A DNA stretch of 24,671 nt from a virus. This document shows positions 10,064 through 23,106 of this stretch, one piece after another. The notes beneath the pieces were generated by a model, which saw only the letters and a list, made by a program, of their open reading frames with translations, had not been told where the DNA came from and did no database searches. The DNA is taken from IMG/VR virus record IMGVR_UViG_3300044682_000006, positions 1 to 24,671 of that record; one strand, given 5' to 3'. Position 1 is the first letter of the stretch. Each line of letters opens with the position of its first letter. The translations under genes were made by a program, and so were the position numbers.

Positions 10064-12232
10064 ATCTACTCGACAAAGATCATCGAGCAACGCTTAGATG
10101 CCTTTGAAGCATCGGAGGCTTGGCGTCCAGTTCGCCACACCCTGGCAGAAGTTGAGGAATTTACCGCTTACATTAAATCGATCACAAAGATTACGAGCAA
10201 TTCCAAAAATTCATATATCGACGTAGTGGCCAATCTGACAGAAAAGCGGGAGAAAGAAATACGTCGTTGGGTAGACAACGAGAAAGTGTTATGCTCTTTC
10301 GACTCAAGCTATTTTGAGAATAATTATGCTTACGTGTGCGACGAGAAGGGACAGATTTTCAAGTTCCACAATCGTCTTTCGCAAAAGATTTTCGACTCTG
10401 TAATTGCCGAGTTTGACGAAAGGCAGGTATCGATAGAACTGCTGATCTTGAAGGCTCGCCAGGTGGGCGTGACCACAAAGACAGCCTTAAAGTTTATTCA
10501 TCGTATGCTTTTCATGCCACACACGCAGTCTGTGATGGCTTCTGTTGATTCAAAGAAATCAGAACTCATCGGTCGCATCCTTGATACGGCTCACGACTTC
10601 TGTCCGTTTTGGCTTGTGCCAATCAGGACGAAAGATTCTCAGCTTGCAAGGGAATACGCGAACAAGTCAATCCTTTCCATTCAGTCTGGTTCACAGGCTA
10701 CAGGCTTGGCGCAGGGGTGGACACCTACGAATATTCACGTTTCCGAGTTAGCTGATCTTAAAGACGCCAAGAAAACGATTGAAGAAGGTCTTCTAAGAGC
10801 AACACACTCTTCCCGCCATCTGTTCATGGTGCTTGAGGGCACAGGCGGAGGCAATACGGGATGGCTAGCTGATACATGGAGAACATCTAAAAAAGATTGG
10901 CCAAGTTCGAGATTGTGCCCCATTTTCATTCCATGGGCGATGGTTCCCGACCTGTATCCAGAAGAAGATTGGATACGGAAGTTCCCCATTCCTGATGACT
11001 GGCATAGAAAGATTTCAGATATAACACGCAAGCATGTAGCACGTTGCGAGTCTTACATTCGCAATACTCCTTATCTTGCCAAGGTTGTAGGTCGTGATTG
11101 GAGGATGCCAGAAGAGCAGAAATGGTTCTGGCAATTTAACTACGACGCTGCCTGCCAGAACCACACGCAAAAGATTTGGCTCGCACAGATGGCGGCTGAC
11201 GACTTTGAGGCTTTGACTGGAGTTCATGACACTGTTTTCGATCCAGAAGTCATATCGGAACTCGAAAATAATGTGTATGAGGTGGTAGGGGAAGGGATAA
11301 AAGAAGAAAGAGTTCGCAGAGAACCGCTGCAAGCCTACGCCATAACTGGGCATTCGGTTGAAGACGCATTTGAACCAGACGAATCACAGATCGATTACGA
11401 TAAGCCAATCATTACTGTCGAATGGAAATCCAATCGGGGTGAGGAATATAGTTGGGACATGATTCCACTTCTTCCGATCAACGAAGATGTGGAGAAGGAC
11501 ACATTCGATAAGCTCTTAGTCTATGAGGAACCGAAGGCTGGATACGATTATGCCTGCGGCGTGGATACCGCTGACGGGTTGGATAAGGAAGACGAAGAGC
11601 GGGCCTGTGCATCTATTTCCAAGGTAGGGACTGGATCAGGATACGACGAACAATGTTGTGAACTGACGAGCCGCAGGATGAACCCAGCACAAATGGTTCC
11701 ATTTGTAGCTTGTATGGCGACATGGTATGGGCGAAGAACCAAAGATCAGAGAGGCGTAAAGTTCGCCATCGAACAGGTAAGAGGGCCAGGAGATACGTGC
11801 CAGAACCAGTTAAAAATCATGGGGTTCAACTACCACCATGCTCCACGGCGCTACGACTCTAAGAAGATCAAGGATGAATCGAAGCACAAGCAAGGATGGT
11901 ATTCCACTTCTTGGAGTGTCCCGATGCTTATGACGAGCTTTGTAGAGGCTGTCAATGGAGGCTGGTACATACCGAAATCGAAGTGGCTGATCGAAGAATG
12001 TAAGACTCTTGAGCGCCACATAACCGGCAGTAAATCCAAGATGGAGCACAGGGAAGGACAATTCGATGATCGCGTGAGAGCGGCGGCGCAGAGCTATTTC
12101 ACGACGCATGACTTGGATGACTTTACGCAGCGGAGTCAAAAGCGGTATTCTCTTCCAAAGAGAAAGCAGAAGGACCCGAACGAGGGCCGCTGCCTAATGA
12201 ACGCCGTATCGGTTTTCGGCGATGACGATTAA
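10064..12232 (+). CDS. Terminase large subunit
   Basis: DNA-packaging ATPase and nuclease that translocates phage DNA into the prohead and cuts it. Counting from the GTG at 10226, the Walker A variant KARQVGVTTKT is at 76-86 and the Walker B-like HVSEL at 171-175. The nuclease acidic residues are in GVDTADG (445-451), FAIEQVRG (~513-520) and FDDRVRA (613-619). The frame stays open and protein-like upstream of that GTG for 54 more codons (FEASEAWRPVRHT...EEFTAYI). That stretch contains no ATG, GTG or TTG, yet a strong GGAGGGG sits five bases before an ATC at 10064. I therefore place the start there, provisionally. From the GTG it would be 668 residues, from the ATC 722. Confidence 0.9.
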   Translation: MYSTKIIEQRLDAFEASEAWRPVRHTLAEVEEFTAYIKSITKITSNSKNSYIDVVANLTEKREKEIRRWVDNEKVLCSFDSSYFENNYAYVCDEKGQIFKFHNRLSQKIFDSVIAEFDERQVSIELLILKARQVGVTTKTALKFIHRMLFMPHTQSVMASVDSKKSELIGRILDTAHDFCPFWLVPIRTKDSQLAREYANKSILSIQSGSQATGLAQGWTPTNIHVSELADLKDAKKTIEEGLLRATHSSRHLFMVLEGTGGGNTGWLADTWRTSKKDWPSSRLCPIFIPWAMVPDLYPEEDWIRKFPIPDDWHRKISDITRKHVARCESYIRNTPYLAKVVGRDWRMPEEQKWFWQFNYDAACQNHTQKIWLAQMAADDFEALTGVHDTVFDPEVISELENNVYEVVGEGIKEERVRREPLQAYAITGHSVEDAFEPDESQIDYDKPIITVEWKSNRGEEYSWDMIPLLPINEDVEKDTFDKLLVYEEPKAGYDYACGVDTADGLDKEDEERACASISKVGTGSGYDEQCCELTSRRMNPAQMVPFVACMATWYGRRTKDQRGVKFAIEQVRGPGDTCQNQLKIMGFNYHHAPRRYDSKKIKDESKHKQGWYSTSWSVPMLMTSFVEAVNGGWYIPKSKWLIEECKTLERHITGSKSKMEHREGQFDDRVRAAAQSYFTTHDLDDFTQRSQKRYSLPKRKQKDPNEGRCLMNAVSVFGDDD

Positions 12233-15463: not shown

Positions 15464-15491
15464 TTGACAATCGCTATACAGTATCTATACA
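15464..15491 (+). promoter_or_regulatory. Promoter with direct-repeat operator for the RHH unit
   Basis: TTGACA (15464-15469), a 16-base spacer and TATACA (15486-15491) form a near-consensus sigma70 promoter. Two copies of CTATACA (15474-15480 and 15485-15491) lie 11 bp apart, one helical turn, overlapping the promoter. ATACAGTAT (15476-15484) is also palindromic. Such repeats suit a dimeric ribbon-helix-helix repressor. The start point would fall near 15498, two bases before the regulator's ATG. Confidence 0.65.
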
Positions 15492-15499
15492 TTAAAACC

Positions 15500-15661
15500 A
15501 TGCCAAGTCGAACTTCAGTTGGATATAGGCTGTCGGATGGGGCATTGAAGTTAATCATTTCCCTATCTGCTGCTATGGGCCTTTCCAAAACTGCTGTGAT
15601 CGAACTTGCGGTTAGGGAACTGGCGCGAAGAAACAAAATCACTCAATCGGATGCAGAGTGA
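15500..15661 (+). CDS. Ribbon-helix-helix (RHH) regulator
   Basis: 53 residues from ATG 15500 (MPSRTSVGYRLSDG). A longer in-frame form beginning at the TTG inside the -35 box is rejected. A short strand (TSVGYRL) is followed by helix one (SDGALKLIISLSAAMG) and helix two (SKTAVIELAVRELARRN), the Arc/MetJ-type RHH layout. Such dimers bind operators through a two-stranded sheet. The -10/ATG spacing implies a nearly leaderless transcript. No ribosome-binding site precedes the ATG, consistent with leaderless translation. It probably represses its own unit through the CTATACA repeats (inference). Confidence 0.75.
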   Translation: MPSRTSVGYRLSDGALKLIISLSAAMGLSKTAVIELAVRELARRNKITQSDAE

Positions 15662-15708: not shown

Positions 15709-16329
15709 ATGGCTACGAAAGCGACAGCATTGTCGAATGTGTCCAACGATGCACAGTTGGACGTTGAAATTCAAACCCCGTTTATGGTTGAGGCTTCCAT
15801 TGAAGGCTCAGCGGCAATTCTTTTCCATCGCTGGTCCTGTGAGGCCGTGGCAGAGAAGGCGGCTTCAAAGAAAGGTTCTGCCGCAAAAAAGAGCGACAAC
15901 ATCGAGAGCTACATGTATCGTGACGAAAAGGGGCATGTGGCGATTCCCTCCGAATATTTCCGCATGAGCATCATCGGCGCAGCCAAGTTCAAGCAGGACC
16001 CGCGCTCACCGCGTAAATCAGCGATGGATTTGTTCAAGGCTGGTATATGCACCATTGGTGAACTGTGCTCGTTGGGTGTGAAGGAACCTGATTATCTCGA
16101 TCAGCGCCGCGTTGTGATTCAGCGCAATGGCATTACTCGCGTTCGGCCCGCGATGCTTGCTGGTTGGAAATGCAAGGTTTCGCTACAAGTTTTGTTGCCC
16201 GAATACATTGACCATCGGATGCTGCACGAAACGCTTGCTTACGCTGGCCGTATCGTTGGCGTTGGCGACTTTCGGCCTTCGTTTGGTCGCTTTCAGGTCA
16301 CGGCTTTCAATGTGATCGAATTGAAGTAA
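15709..16329 (+). CDS. Conserved phage protein of unknown function
   Basis: 206 residues from ATG 15709. A GTG at 15658 overlaps the regulator stop, but the stronger AGAGG site and the typical opening MATKATALS favour the later ATG. Recognisable segments are a glycine/hydrophobic FHRWSCEAVAEKAASKKGSA, a charged SPRKSAMDLFKAGI, and a C-terminal AGRIVGVGDFRPSFGRFQVT. The Gly/Arg/Phe-rich end with small strands is typical of compact sheet proteins of the RAMP-like kind, which is a guess. Similar proteins occur in other phages without known function. Its gene directly precedes the 5-nt GG array. Confidence 0.7.
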   Translation: MATKATALSNVSNDAQLDVEIQTPFMVEASIEGSAAILFHRWSCEAVAEKAASKKGSAAKKSDNIESYMYRDEKGHVAIPSEYFRMSIIGAAKFKQDPRSPRKSAMDLFKAGICTIGELCSLGVKEPDYLDQRRVVIQRNGITRVRPAMLAGWKCKVSLQVLLPEYIDHRMLHETLAYAGRIVGVGDFRPSFGRFQVTAFNVIELK

Positions 16330-16334
16330 CACGC

Positions 16335-16765
16335 GGCGTGTCACGGTCGGCACAGGAACGGCGCGGACAGATAAGGACTGGCAATCCACGGCGAGTTCCG
16401 GAGAGGCGGGTTGAGATATGGTCCGGCAAGACAAGAACGGGTAGGATGTGGTTCGGTCGGCAATGGTAGGGCATGGAACGGGTCATTATGACCGGCATGG
16501 TGAGTCACCGGTGCGGCGAGGGATGGAATGGGCACGTCGGGGAGTGGTTCTGCAAGGATGGCCACGGCACGGAGCGATTCGGTCGGACGGGGACAGGCAA
16601 TGCGGAGCGATGTATGGCAGGACATGGAACGGGCCGAAAGGCCGGTAAGGAGTGGTCTGCTCTGGAGAGTCCAGCAATGGCGAGCAACGGAGTGGAGAGA
16701 TTGGGTCAGGAACGGCGTGGCGGTGCATGGAAAGCAAAGGCTAGTCAAGGATCGCCAAGGCGTGG
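16335..16765 (+). repeat. Degenerate GG array with 5-nt phase
   Basis: About 430 bp of G-rich sequence in which GG steps recur every 5 or 10 bases, such as AACGG, CGCGG, CATGG. By hand count about 50 of some 63 GG runs keep one of three phases: 16335-16540, 16546-16631 and 16644-16764. The lattice slips only twice. Words recur (CATGGAACGGG and CAGGAACGGCG, twice each). Short hairpins are embedded: ACACG-CGG-CGTGT (16329-16341), GTCAT-T-ATGAC (16482-16492), GGCC-GAAA-GGCC (16632-16643) and CTGGA-GAG-TCCAG (16662-16674). A 5-nt period conflicts with triplet coding, so it is probably non-coding RNA or DNA. Function unknown. Confidence 0.75.
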
Positions 16766-16767
16766 TG

Positions 16768-16800
16768 AAATGGCAGACTTTAGGGTCTGCCATTTCCTTT
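16768..16800 (+). terminator. Rho-independent terminator after the array
   Basis: A perfect 11-bp stem AAATGGCAGAC / GTCTGCCATTT (16768-16778 and 16785-16795) encloses the loop TTTAGG and is followed by CCTTTTG. Its length and downstream T tract fit a strong terminator. It closes the unit that begins at the promoter 15464 and separates it from the portal promoter at 16805. Confidence 0.8.
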
Positions 16801-16804
16801 TGTG

Positions 16805-16833
16805 TAGACAGTTGAGAGTGTTTGTTTTAAGAT
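16805..16833 (+). promoter_or_regulatory. Promoter for the portal gene
   Basis: TAGACA (16805-16810), a 17-base spacer and TAAGAT (16828-16833) give 5/6 and 4/6 matches to sigma70 consensus, immediately after the terminator. The predicted start point is near 16840. The leader to the portal gene would be about 45 bases and carries GGGAGGAAAG as ribosome-binding site. Confidence 0.6.
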
Positions 16834-16849
16834 GCAATTCAGTTGCATC
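16831..16849 (+). promoter_or_regulatory. Inverted repeat at the portal start point
   Basis: GATGCAA-TTCAG-TTGCATC is a perfect 7-bp inverted repeat with a 5-base loop. It overlaps the end of the -10 box and the expected transcription start. It could be an operator (DNA) or a 5' hairpin (RNA). I did not notice a second copy in the window. Which protein would bind it is unknown; candidates are the XRE regulator at 6573 and the RHH regulator at 15500. Confidence 0.5.
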
Positions 16850-16887
16850 CAAGGGTGCTGCGCGAACCGGGAGGAAAGCGATGCGGT

Positions 16888-18972
16888 GTGTTTCTTGATC
16901 ATGTTGAAACGGTAAGTTGGCAAGCGCCGCCCTTCGAAGCTCCATCCAGCACAAAAATTGGCTGGATCGAGGACATGCTCAGCGAATCAGAAGGCTGGTT
17001 AAGCGGCCAAAAAAGCTATAAGAATCTTGCATCTAACCTAGCTGTTTTCAATGGTTTATTTAAAGATAAAGCAAAGTCTGTTCTGGTCACAAACGGCTTG
17101 CGGTACGCCGCCACAAAATTCGTTACGACCTTAGCAGAGGTCAGAGAAATTGCTGCGTATGGCTCCGACGTAAAAGCCTACAAACAGATGGCCGAGATGC
17201 TGACAAAGGTCTCGAAATGTGTTTATCTAGAATCCGACTTCCCAATCCAAATCTTGCGTGTTCTGCAGTACGCAACCGTTATGGGCATCGGCTATCTGTG
17301 GCCCAAGGTCCGTCCGACCGAGTATGGATATGGTCCAAGGGAGATGGTTTTTGATGCGCTAGGACTCTTAGATGTAATGCCAACTCAGATTCCGTCTAGG
17401 TCGAATGACATCCAAGATGCTTATTCCGTAACGATTTACGATTACATGCCTATCGCCGAATCCTATGGGAGATTTCCTCTCTATCAAGGAAAATTACAAA
17501 CTGTTGGCGTCAATTCTTACAAAAGTCTGATTCAGGCCAAGCGGCAGGACTTTGCTGCTTCCTATCGTTATGGCGATCTACAGGACCAAGGAAAGAGTTT
17601 CGGCAATCTATACACCGAGATAAGATACACATTCATCAGGGACTTGCGCATCAACAACACTGGTTTTGAGATGCAGTGCGGAGAACCTGGAACGTCATGG
17701 TATTACAAGGTTCCGTACATCGGGCAGGATATTTTTGGAGGAATTAGGAATGGTCAACCTTACATGCGCCCCGCAATGGCTGAGGATTGCCGCCTGTACC
17801 CTAACCTGCGGCTCATCATTTCATCGAACGGGCTGGACAGGCCAATGTACGACGGTACTGCATTCGACTGGGACCCAAACATCCCGGTAATTCAATACAC
17901 CGTAGACGATGTTCCGTGGGAGCCGGGAGGAAGATCGTTGGTTGGTGCCGTAGCGTCTATCCAGACAACCATCAGGAAATTCGAGCGTTTGATAGATCAA
18001 ACATCCTGCGCCGAAAAGGACCCTGCTCTTGGCTACAACGCTGACGAAAACGGAGGACCAAAGATTGAACACTGGGACCCGTTTGAATCAGGCACAAGGC
18101 TTGGACTATTTGGAGGCGGCAAGCCGCGAGATACTCTCCAATCGCTGCTTCCCGAAGGCGTAGCAGTAAAAAGCATAGATTTTGAATTGTTGAAGTATTA
18201 TCACGATTCCATGTTTGCCGAACTCGGATTAAACGATGTAGGCAACATTGCCAACATCAAGATCAACATGAGCGCGGACGATGCACAGAAGCAGATCGAG
18301 TCCATCGGGCCTATCGGAAAAGGCATTGCGATGCGACTGGAGAAGGCCAACAAGAAAGTAGGAGAAAGAGTTAAGTACCTTATACCTCAATGGTTTGACA
18401 CGCAAAGACTCATTGAGTACGTCGGCGAGGATCACATTGCAAGAGAAGTGTTCGACTACAATCCCGACGACATGGTTCCCAGCCATTTGCCAGACGAAAT
18501 GCTGCCTACAGGACAATTCCCCACCACGCCGTCGATGTACGACAAATTGACTAGGGCGAAGTGGCTGGTAAAGAAATTGCGGCTGATTTCTGTGCCGAGC
18601 ATGTTGCTGAAATTGACTGCGCAGGCTGAACAACTCAAATACTTGCAGCTCAAGCGTCAGCCGGATTGTCCATTGAGTTGGTCAACCTGCTTTGAGAAAT
18701 TGGACGTGCCTAACCCGAAAGAGGAAATTGAGAAATACTTTAAGGAGCAAATGCAATTGACCAAGATGAAACTCATGGCCGCTGCGATGGCCCAGAAGGA
18801 GATGCAGGAGTTAGGACTACAACCTCCAGAGGAACAAGGTGGCGGTAAGGGAGGCGGGAAGGGTGGAGGGCTGCACGCTGGTGGCAGACCGCCGAGTGGC
18901 CAACGTCCACCAAAATTGGCCCAAAAGGGCGGAGCGGGTGGCGCTGCCAGGACGGTCGTGAAAGAGTCGTAG
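16888..18972 (+). CDS. Portal protein (head-tail connector)
   Basis: Likely portal protein, the dodecameric ring through which DNA enters and leaves the head. From the GTG at 16888 it has 694 residues, in the size range of large podovirus-type portals. A long helical stem-like region includes NMSADDAQKQIESIGPIGKG. Helices follow (LTKMKLMAAAMAQKEMQELG), then a Gly/Lys/Pro-rich, probably disordered tail (GGGKGGGKGGG). The position among terminase, scaffold and capsid genes supports it. The start is uncertain: the ATG at 16881 with ideal ribosome-binding spacing is out of frame and ends after five codons. An upstream in-frame TTG at 16843 is also possible. Confidence 0.8.
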   Translation: MFLDHVETVSWQAPPFEAPSSTKIGWIEDMLSESEGWLSGQKSYKNLASNLAVFNGLFKDKAKSVLVTNGLRYAATKFVTTLAEVREIAAYGSDVKAYKQMAEMLTKVSKCVYLESDFPIQILRVLQYATVMGIGYLWPKVRPTEYGYGPREMVFDALGLLDVMPTQIPSRSNDIQDAYSVTIYDYMPIAESYGRFPLYQGKLQTVGVNSYKSLIQAKRQDFAASYRYGDLQDQGKSFGNLYTEIRYTFIRDLRINNTGFEMQCGEPGTSWYYKVPYIGQDIFGGIRNGQPYMRPAMAEDCRLYPNLRLIISSNGLDRPMYDGTAFDWDPNIPVIQYTVDDVPWEPGGRSLVGAVASIQTTIRKFERLIDQTSCAEKDPALGYNADENGGPKIEHWDPFESGTRLGLFGGGKPRDTLQSLLPEGVAVKSIDFELLKYYHDSMFAELGLNDVGNIANIKINMSADDAQKQIESIGPIGKGIAMRLEKANKKVGERVKYLIPQWFDTQRLIEYVGEDHIAREVFDYNPDDMVPSHLPDEMLPTGQFPTTPSMYDKLTRAKWLVKKLRLISVPSMLLKLTAQAEQLKYLQLKRQPDCPLSWSTCFEKLDVPNPKEEIEKYFKEQMQLTKMKLMAAAMAQKEMQELGLQPPEEQGGGKGGGKGGGLHAGGRPPSGQRPPKLAQKGGAGGAARTVVKES

Positions 18973-18995: not shown

Positions 18996-19235
18996 ATGGC
19001 GATCAAAATTAAGGTGCAACGGGATTACTTGCTTACTGAAGCTTCCATCGAATTGGCTGCCGACGTTTCACAGGTAGATGAAATTCTCAAGGCGAGCAAG
19101 TCGAACGGGAAAATGGTTGTGCTTTACAACCAGGGATGCATACAGGGGATCAACGTCGAGCAGAGAACAAAACTCAGTGACGTAAACGCGGAGAAGGTTC
19201 GGCAATTGTTAAAACTGGAAGATGTTGAACTATAG
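18996..19235 (+). CDS. Small hypothetical protein after the portal
   Basis: 79 residues behind AAAGGAGAAAA. Begins with alternating basic strand residues (MAIKIKVQRDYLLTEASIEL), then two helices rich in Leu, Lys and Glu. Small alpha/beta proteins directly after portal genes often serve the head, but no family is recognised here. Its stop touches the stop of the antisense HNH gene. Confidence 0.65.
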   Translation: MAIKIKVQRDYLLTEASIELAADVSQVDEILKASKSNGKMVVLYNQGCIQGINVEQRTKLSDVNAEKVRQLLKLEDVEL

Positions 19236-20042
19236 GTCGCCAAAGAGAGATGGTTGATCGGGATTAGAGTCTTTCTTCCTTTTCTGGCCTTGCATGATCG
19301 CAACAATCCTTTCTCTTTCGGCAGGATTACTCCCGTTATCCTTCCATCGATTAGCGGCCATCGACATAACCCAAACGTTCCCTTTTGTATAACCCAATTC
19401 GGGAACGATTTTGTCAACACTGGCCCAAACTCTACGATCAGGGCCATGATGGTAGTCGAGTCTAATATGCGGGAATAATGGGCAGAAGACTGGCAATTCA
19501 CACGTCGTTTTATCGAGCAGATCAGAAGCTACCATGCCGAACGGAATTCCCTTCCTATTCGCCCGTTCTTTGCACCTGCTTACAGCCTGCTTTGCCCAAT
19601 TATTTTCTTTCCATTTAGCCGTCGCTTTTGCACGTTTGTCAGGATGCTTCGCAGTAAAAGTAGCAGCCCATTTCTTGTTTAGCTCTTTGAAGTGTTCGGG
19701 ATTCTTCTTTCTGCTCTTTTTTGTCCGTTCATATCTCTTATCGTGATCAGTCGTTTCTTGAATGCACTTCTTGCACCGCGACCTGTATCCAGATTTGGTG
19801 AAGCAATCCTTACTGAAACTGCTCAGCGGTAGGTACTTTGTACATCTGGAGCATTGCTTAGTTTTGAATTCCTCATCATTTTTACGGAGCAGTTCTTCTA
19901 TGGTTTCCTCTAATTCATCACTATCGTCCGAATCGTTTTCAGCCTCATCCAATAGTGGAGCGTCAGCTTCGAATGTGAAGCGGACAATCGACCAATCATT
20001 AGGTTGGCTTTCAGGATATAATTGTGGAAATGGGGTTGGCAT
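19230..20042 (-). CDS. HNH endonuclease, homing-type
   Basis: 270 residues on the minus strand, the only convincing antisense gene in this stretch. The ATG follows GAGGAGCGCAAA. A Cys-x2-Cys pair (64/67) and a second (90/93) form a zinc-binding module. Lys/Arg-rich helices follow, and a C-terminal core reads DYHHGPDRRVWASVDKIV...YTKGNVWVMSMAANR. The ASVDKI...GYTKGNV pattern is typical of a phage HNH family that cuts DNA and spreads by homing. The gene sits inside the virion module against the transcription direction, a hallmark of a mobile insertion. The N-terminal acidic segment (ENDSDDSDELEETIEELLRK) is an unusual addition. Confidence 0.85.
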   Translation of the reverse strand: MPTPFPQLYPESQPNDWSIVRFTFEADAPLLDEAENDSDDSDELEETIEELLRKNDEEFKTKQCSRCTKYLPLSSFSKDCFTKSGYRSRCKKCIQETTDHDKRYERTKKSRKKNPEHFKELNKKWAATFTAKHPDKRAKATAKWKENNWAKQAVSRCKERANRKGIPFGMVASDLLDKTTCELPVFCPLFPHIRLDYHHGPDRRVWASVDKIVPELGYTKGNVWVMSMAANRWKDNGSNPAERERIVAIMQGQKRKKDSNPDQPSLFGDL

Positions 20043-21858: not shown

Positions 21859-23106
21859 ATGGCAGATCCACTCTACGGTCAAATTGACGCTGCGGAACTC
21901 GAAGCGGTTCGCGTTGGTGTCCTCTGGAATAATTTATTCGTTGGGACACCATTCCAAGCCAAGCTACGTCGCGCAGGCGTATGGGACCCGTTCCTTGGCG
22001 GCGCTGGCATGAGAGAGAACATCCTCTACGGTCGCACACAGTACGCGGCGGTTGATTCTGGTCAGACCGTGACGGTGACGGCGCAGCAGATCAACTCTGG
22101 CATCAAGTTTCTGCCGAAGTTCTATGCGGCATGGTGGCCGATGGATGACGCGCTGTACGATGACGGTTCTGGAACGGGCGGCGTCATCAACTCTGGTCCT
22201 CCAACCATCATTGACGAGTACCAAGCCTACATGGAGAACATGGTGCTGGGCTTGAATACGGCGTTGGAAATGGATTCGTTCCGGCATGGACAGGCTTCAA
22301 GCGGAACAAGCATTACAGACAACCGTATCAAGGCCATCAACGGCTTGGACGAAGCGTTGAACAACGGCATCGATCCTTCCATCTACGGCAACATATACAA
22401 GAACTATGGTGGGCAGGTTCGTAATGGCGCTATCGGTGTTGCACTGAATTCTACCCCTCTATATCTGGGCAATGGTGGAACTCCTGGCCAGATCGATTTT
22501 GCGGCCATGACGCAGTTGAAGGCGCAATGCACAGTGACGGGTGGAAATCCAGACCTTGGCATTACCAACACTTTCGGGTACTCCGCAATCGCCATCGCAC
22601 TCGATGCGCAGCGCAGAGACGTATCGAACAAGAATCACGACATCGCATGGCGCGGGTTCAACTTCGATGGAATCGACATTTACGCTGATCCTCTGGCACC
22701 ATCGGCTGCGGCTCAGAACTACATTGCACTGGCTCCGAATGATCCTGGACAGGGCAATGCTAACCTGCAGGACGGCGTTGGGTCGAGCACCACAACCGTT
22801 TCGTTTACGACTCCGCAATTCACGAGCAACGGAGCGAACGTGGCGTTCTCTCCAACGAACTCTGGTTTGCCGTCGAACACCGTTATCCAGCCGTCAGAGT
22901 ACCTTGCGTTCTTGGAGACGAGTTCGTTCAAGGTTCGCCCGACGAACAAGAGTGGCTGGAACTACGGAATCCGCAGAGCGCCAATGCCAAACAACGTGTC
23001 AATCGACGCAATCTTTATGCGCGTGAGCACGAACCTATATCAGTGCCAGCCGAGACATTCCGCGTATGCTTTTGGATTCAACGCAGGAATCTTCAACAAC
23101 GGTTAA
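21859..23106 (+). CDS. Major capsid protein
   Basis: 415 residues behind ACAGGAGAATAAG. An Asn/Gly/Tyr-rich sequence with mixed helix and strand follows a helical opening (DAAELEAVRVGVLWNNLFVG). Strand segments such as FLPKFYAAWWPMDDALYDDG and a C-terminal FRVRP-type stretch (SSFKVRPTNKSG...GIRRAPMP) fit a HK97-like shell protein. Length, codon quality and position directly after the scaffold-like gene support it. I see no cross-linking or maturation signature, and the assignment should be read as position plus composition. Confidence 0.8.
   Translation: MADPLYGQIDAAELEAVRVGVLWNNLFVGTPFQAKLRRAGVWDPFLGGAGMRENILYGRTQYAAVDSGQTVTVTAQQINSGIKFLPKFYAAWWPMDDALYDDGSGTGGVINSGPPTIIDEYQAYMENMVLGLNTALEMDSFRHGQASSGTSITDNRIKAINGLDEALNNGIDPSIYGNIYKNYGGQVRNGAIGVALNSTPLYLGNGGTPGQIDFAAMTQLKAQCTVTGGNPDLGITNTFGYSAIAIALDAQRRDVSNKNHDIAWRGFNFDGIDIYADPLAPSAAAQNYIALAPNDPGQGNANLQDGVGSSTTTVSFTTPQFTSNGANVAFSPTNSGLPSNTVIQPSEYLAFLETSSFKVRPTNKSGWNYGIRRAPMPNNVSIDAIFMRVSTNLYQCQPRHSAYAFGFNAGIFNNG

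Follow-up and report, generated by a model that had tools for sequence, protein, structure and literature searches.

A period-5 GG array beside a Cas7-like gene in a tailed phage is very probably a VIPR guide-RNA array directed at the portal gene of sibling phages

The approximately 430 G-rich bases that follow a 206-codon gene (15709-16329) in a tailed-phage genome fragment are very probably the vrRNA array of a VIPR system, which lies in a small cassette directly before the portal operon and includes a guide that fits the portal gene of sibling phages but mismatches the phage's own copy. The fragment, hereafter the window, is the whole 24,671-nucleotide (24.7-kb) stretch of viral DNA that was analysed. 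The region is read as guide RNA because it keeps a strict 5-nt register, is linked by strand to a Cas7-like protein, and contains a guide whose decoded target matches at 20 of 20 specified bases. VIPR was described in a 2026 preprint as a CRISPR-like, RNA-guided system in which the protein Vipr is an ancestral RAMP and the vrRNAs consist of 9-16 YNNGG repeats plus a 3′ tail (PMC13142463). According to the same source, each NN pair reads two bases of double-stranded DNA and skips one base, mostly the codon wobble; VIPR acts by repressing transcription and is aimed at competing phages and satellites; seven types and several vap accessory genes are described; and GGY or a "related consensus" is allowed as the unit (PMC13142463). 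Judged from its sequence, the lineage studied here is a VIPR member with a relaxed GGH unit, hairpin-bounded blocks, a linked ribbon-helix-helix (RHH) gene, and a predicted target in siblings.

A 5-nt GG lattice follows the vipr gene

To examine the periodicity of the region, GG autocorrelation and phase were compared with those of 2000 dinucleotide-preserving shuffles of the array region. The period-5 GG phase power was 22.8 in the array, whereas the shuffles averaged 1.0 and peaked at 8.4, and none of the 2000 equaled the observed value. GG pairs were in excess at lags 5, 10, 15, and 20 (z 4.5-6.2) and depleted at lags 2, 3, 7, 12, and 13, and no comparable signal occurred elsewhere in the window for GG or CC at periods 3 to 11. 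The 5-nt lattice claimed by the original prediction is thus real; its estimate of some 63 GG runs agreed with the 63 counted within 16335-16765, and the two phase slips that it placed near 16545 and near 16640 were both present. Its view of the array as non-coding, with a phase incompatible with codons read directly, also held.

A lattice HMM identified a single segment in the window, 16335-16766 on the plus strand, in which 52 of the approximately 87 units had GG and about 40% lacked it. When three stretches were read in fixed register, G occupied position 1 in 65 of 71 units, position 2 in 48 of 71, and position 3 in none, and positions 4 and 5 were variable. This result indicated a G-G-H-N-N unit. 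The third base was A in 31% of the window's HMM units; in many relatives the base after GG was almost always a pyrimidine, with A at only 0-7% in L004, L009, L011, L013, L112, and L219. The units retain GG, whereas their NN positions are hypervariable. Whole-array folding gave structure not above expectation (z -1.3), the array had no regular repeats, and an Rfam scan returned nothing but a chance miRNA-like match at the terminator described below. As a separate observation, an inverted repeat, TTCTTAGTGGGG..CCCCACTAAGAA, was seen by eye to cover part of the array of phage DSL-LC04 (L009:5780-5870).

Hairpins divide the array and a terminator closes it

Two internal hairpins on the plus strand, GGTCA-TTA-TGACC (16481-16493) and GGCC-GAAA-GGCC (16632-16643), divide the array into three blocks. 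The second coincides with the phase slip near 16640, and the first also disturbs the phase briefly. The first hairpin shows complementary changes in relatives and, from its sequence context, probably forms the end or the tail of a vrRNA. Hairpins in an equivalent setting were found in L001, L006, L013, and L026, where the stems differ yet remain complementary (GGCC/GGCC, GGCG/CGCC, GGCT/AGCC, and GGTCA/TGACC), and such hairpins often have GNRA-like loops. Array blocks hold 17-29 units, with the hairpins at block ends. Among all 347 arrays, 22 hairpins of this kind were observed against 7.7 expected on unit shuffling; from their number they are a feature of the window's clade, not of all arrays. 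The array is closed by a strong intrinsic terminator at 16767-16796 (+), a 13-pair stem followed by CTTTTG. Terminator-like hairpins were also seen by eye after the array in L003-L006 and L013.

The adjacent gene encodes a Vipr homologue with a predicted Cas7-like fold

The gene before the array, vipr, encodes a 206-aa Cas7-like RAMP on the plus strand. A profile built from 114 aligned homologues matched PDB 36pp chain D, "SUSP1 Vipr protein", at E 1.3e-44, and a single-sequence search against SUSP1 Vipr gave E 7e-4. The AlphaFold2 model of the protein, made without templates, had a pLDDT of 93 and a pTM of 0.85, and the predicted fold matched the backbone subunits Cas7/Csm3 from CRISPR complexes of types VII and III-A, with a best E of 4e-7. 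In PHROGs, phrog_4652, listed with function unknown, matched all 114 aligned homologues. Pfam, NCBIfam, and PADLOC yielded no family for the protein, and no cas model matched vipr or the neighbors scanned. A conserved GVGDFRPSFGRF stretch appears, by motif, to resemble the RAMP glycine-rich loop.

A probable cassette lies directly ahead of the portal operon

Gene matches in the window identify the fragment as tailed phage, with a terminase-like protein (10226-12232), the portal gene (16843-18972), and a major head protein (21859-23106); vipr sits between an upstream gene and the portal. Elsewhere in the window, a DNA N6/N4 methyltransferase is encoded at 436-1134 (PF01555, E 2e-15). In addition, a zinc-finger/HNH-looking gene lies on the opposite strand among the late structural genes (19230-20042, minus); it has a 54% identical copy in siblings such as L219 and L222 and resembles a free-standing homing-type endonuclease, a name given by eye, with no Pfam match above cut-off.

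Directly upstream of vipr, a small RHH protein of 53 aa is encoded at 15500-15661 (+). It matched the transcriptional regulator family phrog_3887 at E 9e-5 and RHH_1 at E 0.009, the latter under the Pfam cut-off. In the loci scanned, all 19 of 19 members of this RHH family, the window's included, were found directly upstream of vipr, in varied genomic contexts, and the protein is a candidate accessory (vap) protein or autoregulator. A consensus scan placed a promoter-like site, TTGACA-18-TACATT, before the RHH gene at 15464-15493 (+), scoring 10/12, and by eye L013 and L006 have TTGAC(A/G) in the same place, together with an AT-rich -10-like stretch. Inverted repeats were also noted by eye in the pre-RHH promoters of these two relatives, GTAGTGC..GCACTAC in L006 (3695-3740) and TGTATAG..CTATACA in L013 (4700-4740); such repeats would fit RHH autoregulation.

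A further promoter-like sequence, just outside the cassette at 16805-16833 (+), would serve the portal operon. In the sibling L221, where vipr was not detected, the portal promoter-like sequence follows the upstream gene directly, and by eye this looks like an empty site. We infer that a cassette of about 1.3 kb, comprising promoter, RHH gene, vipr, array, and terminator, was inserted ahead of the portal operon.

Array and vipr are linked across genomes

We then examined whether array and gene occur together elsewhere. The lattice was present in 89 of 91 viral loci fetched via the protein, including a Felixounavirus (L011) and Pseudomonas phage LESphi2 (L010), which bears out the statement in the original prediction that period-5 arrays accompany similar genes in other phages. 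Such arrays go unmentioned in the searched passages of the Felix O1 genome paper. Of the arrays within 1.5 kb of vipr, 186 of 190 lay on its strand, either up- or downstream, and in cellular genomes same-strand arrays were found in 23 of 23 loci and opposite-strand arrays in none. Conversely, viral contigs were searched with a DNA pattern of ten GG units, and 81 of the 120 loci found by the lattice alone had vipr; the GG lattice by itself therefore finds VIPR systems. Several of the remaining lattice-only loci were contigs ending at the array or lattices within open reading frames.

Long GG lattices accompanied by no detectable vipr were observed at L199:10538-10897, L092:2561-3333, L177:11109-11306, and L103:8661-8868, of which those of L092 and L177 overlap open frames. 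Such lattices may be orphan vrRNA arrays that belong to satellites, or the Vipr beside them may be more divergent. Separately, many planctomycete genomes, mostly Phycisphaerales (L350-L361), encode a close Vipr accompanied by three arrays on its strand, similarly spaced from genome to genome; these loci are perhaps prophages or host-borne systems.

One guide decodes to the portal gene of sibling phages

Guides were decoded by taking the NN pair of each unit as two specified bases of an NNx triplet, and 3.7 million positions of the gathered loci were searched on both strands. The 10 units at 16704-16753 (+), with NN pairs CA AC GT GG AT AA AA TA AA TC, matched a site in the sibling phage L013 at 20 of 20 bases with a 1-nt skip, and no other perfect match of 10 units in that search had good complexity. 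The L013 target lies in frame in the portal gene, where it encodes QTVGMNNYKS, and the skipped base is the wobble of every codon. By hand estimate, the chance of a 20/20 match is about 71 x 3.7e6 / 4^20 = 2e-4 for the lattice registers and about 1.5e-3 for all registers. A gapped-pattern scan of all viral contigs returned 11 exact matches, L013's own contig among them, all in frame in the same portal peptide, and 9 of the 10 skipped positions varied among these contigs. The 11 contigs are all homologues and thus count as one event rather than eleven independent ones; they show the reach of the guide. The portal of L006 matched at 19/20. The phage's own counterpart, QTVGVNSYKS at 17497-17526 (+), matched at only 15/20, indicating that self is mismatched at coding positions.

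The skip rule was examined by varying it. With all registers compared against relatives, 10-unit matches of at least 18/20 occurred at skip 1 only around the 16704-16753 guide; skips of 0 or 2 gave none, and a skip of 3 gave one array-to-array match only. Other skip lengths and NN offsets, used as decoding rules, gave no signal above permuted controls. Across all arrays, the 1-nt skip produced 18/18 matches for 9 of 7765 guide windows, against 0-1 for permuted guides, a count that is inflated because the windows overlap and the searched sequences include loci fetched with the window's guide patterns. The clean independent case is the upstream array of L013, in which 12 units match a site in G011 at 24/24; the complementary strand there holds a 186-codon open frame, and the skipped base is again the third of each codon. 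G011 is also among the phages matched by the window's guide.

A candidate second guide at 16649-16708 (+) resembles the portal N-terminus, the own copy, in frame at 16888, matching at 20/24. The search gave no exact target for these units, and the likeness is suggestive only, as it would be expected about 0.3 times in relatives and 0.01 times in the window (hand estimate). No target was decoded for the array upstream of 16649, where the candidates 16420-16464 and 16571-16615 matched no viral contig. We do not claim the candidate 16659-16698, which has only 16 specified bases and is compatible with chance; its 87 matches fell mostly in one isolate-prophage gene family, presumably recE-like, and one 20/20 match was in the unrelated contig L302. 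Low-complexity matches of GG-rich or out-of-register windows (L074, L100, and L151) were discarded.

Proposed mechanism and alternative explanations

By analogy with the published SUSP1 system, the array and Vipr would form a ribonucleoprotein that binds DNA, silences its target, and benefits the phage against competitors. The transcript would carry 5-nt G-G-H-N-N units, each Vipr subunit most likely gripping one GG(H) and presenting the NN pair, and a Vipr chain on about 10 units could then read double-stranded target DNA in NNx triplets. In this way the guide 16704-16753 would read the sibling portal at codon positions 1 and 2 and block portal transcription, and the phage's own copy should be spared, being mismatched at 5 of 20 bases. 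Set against this explanation, one guide only has an exact target and most of the array is undecoded; the frequent A at the third position, the units that miss GG, and blocks longer than the published 9-16 repeats also weigh against it. A more detailed proposal is put forward tentatively, and may well not hold in full: that the clade uses a looser code, with GGH units and the second G absent in about one-third of them, and that at least two adjoining anti-portal guides of 10-12 units, one for the N-terminus and one for an internal site, lie in one hairpin-ended block, so that a few codon differences outside the wobble position would distinguish siblings from self.

Alternatively, the array could be a binding scaffold for the Cas7-like protein that recognizes no target, serving autoregulation of the protein's own mRNA or as a titration sponge, with the portal match a coincidence. 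The position of the array in the likely 3′ UTR of its binder's gene and the many units lacking a decoded target would suit such a role. However, the probability of a complex, in-frame 20/20 match to a sibling portal arising by chance is about 2e-4 by hand estimate, the match arises under the published skip rule only, a second array gives 24/24, and GG is retained although the NN bases are hypervariable. We therefore consider a pure scaffold improbable.

The two functions suggested by the original prediction are far less probable still. GG tracts with 3-nt loops are compatible in principle with two-tetrad G-quadruplexes acting in RNA or single-stranded DNA, but quadruplex loop length is flexible and a strict 5-nt register over hundreds of bases would be unnecessary; moreover, the register and the decoded match run through the approximately one-third of units that have no second G, and quadruplexes leave the Cas7-like linkage and the decoding unexplained. 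The register, the linkage, and the 20/20 target thus favor guide RNA. A trap of GGA words for a CsrA-type or ribosome-type binder, to which the share of A after GG in the window would lend itself, is very hard to sustain, because the near-constant pyrimidine in many relatives means that GGA is not a conserved feature, and because CsrA sites are usually shown in hairpin loops and not on a 5-nt lattice.

Read as a guide-RNA array, the region places VIPR in a lineage of phages for which one can name the weapon as well as its likely targets, and the proposals of inter-phage conflict and wobble skipping for VIPR become directly testable.

Comparison with known systems

The system shares with Class 1 CRISPR-Cas (Cas7/Csm3 of types III and VII) the RAMP fold with its glycine-rich loop and, as proposed here, the line-up of subunits along a guide RNA with periodic unpaired bases. 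In contrast, the array, vipr, and the scanned neighbors contain neither CRISPR repeats nor cas genes, the period is 5 rather than 6, and the guide information is not contiguous. The trp RNA-binding attenuation protein (TRAP) is likewise multimeric and recognizes RNA through short G-containing triplets at a spacing of about 5 nt; however, its fold is unrelated, its 11 repeats are wrapped on a ring, and it decodes no second nucleic acid. TIGR-Tas, as far as the available text of its report describes it, is also phage-borne and combines a tandem guide-RNA array with an RNA-guided DNA-targeting protein, but that protein belongs to another family, mined from a Cas9 guide-RNA-binding domain (PMC12045711).

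The closest relatives are the published VIPR systems of Escherichia phage SUSP1 and a Pseudomonas fulva prophage. As these are presented in the available text of the preprint, the window shares with them a homologous Vipr, an array beside the gene on the same strand, 5-nt GG units with variable NN, a 1-nt skip at the wobble position, and targets in competing phages (PMC13142463). By the same text, it differs as follows: the third base is A, C, or T in the window's array and mainly a pyrimidine in the published systems; the window has a single array, whose approximately 87 units fall into three blocks bounded by hairpins, whereas the published vrRNAs are separate and have 9-16 repeats, to be compared with the 10 units of the decoded guide and the 17-29 of the blocks; and the linked gene in the window encodes a small RHH protein.
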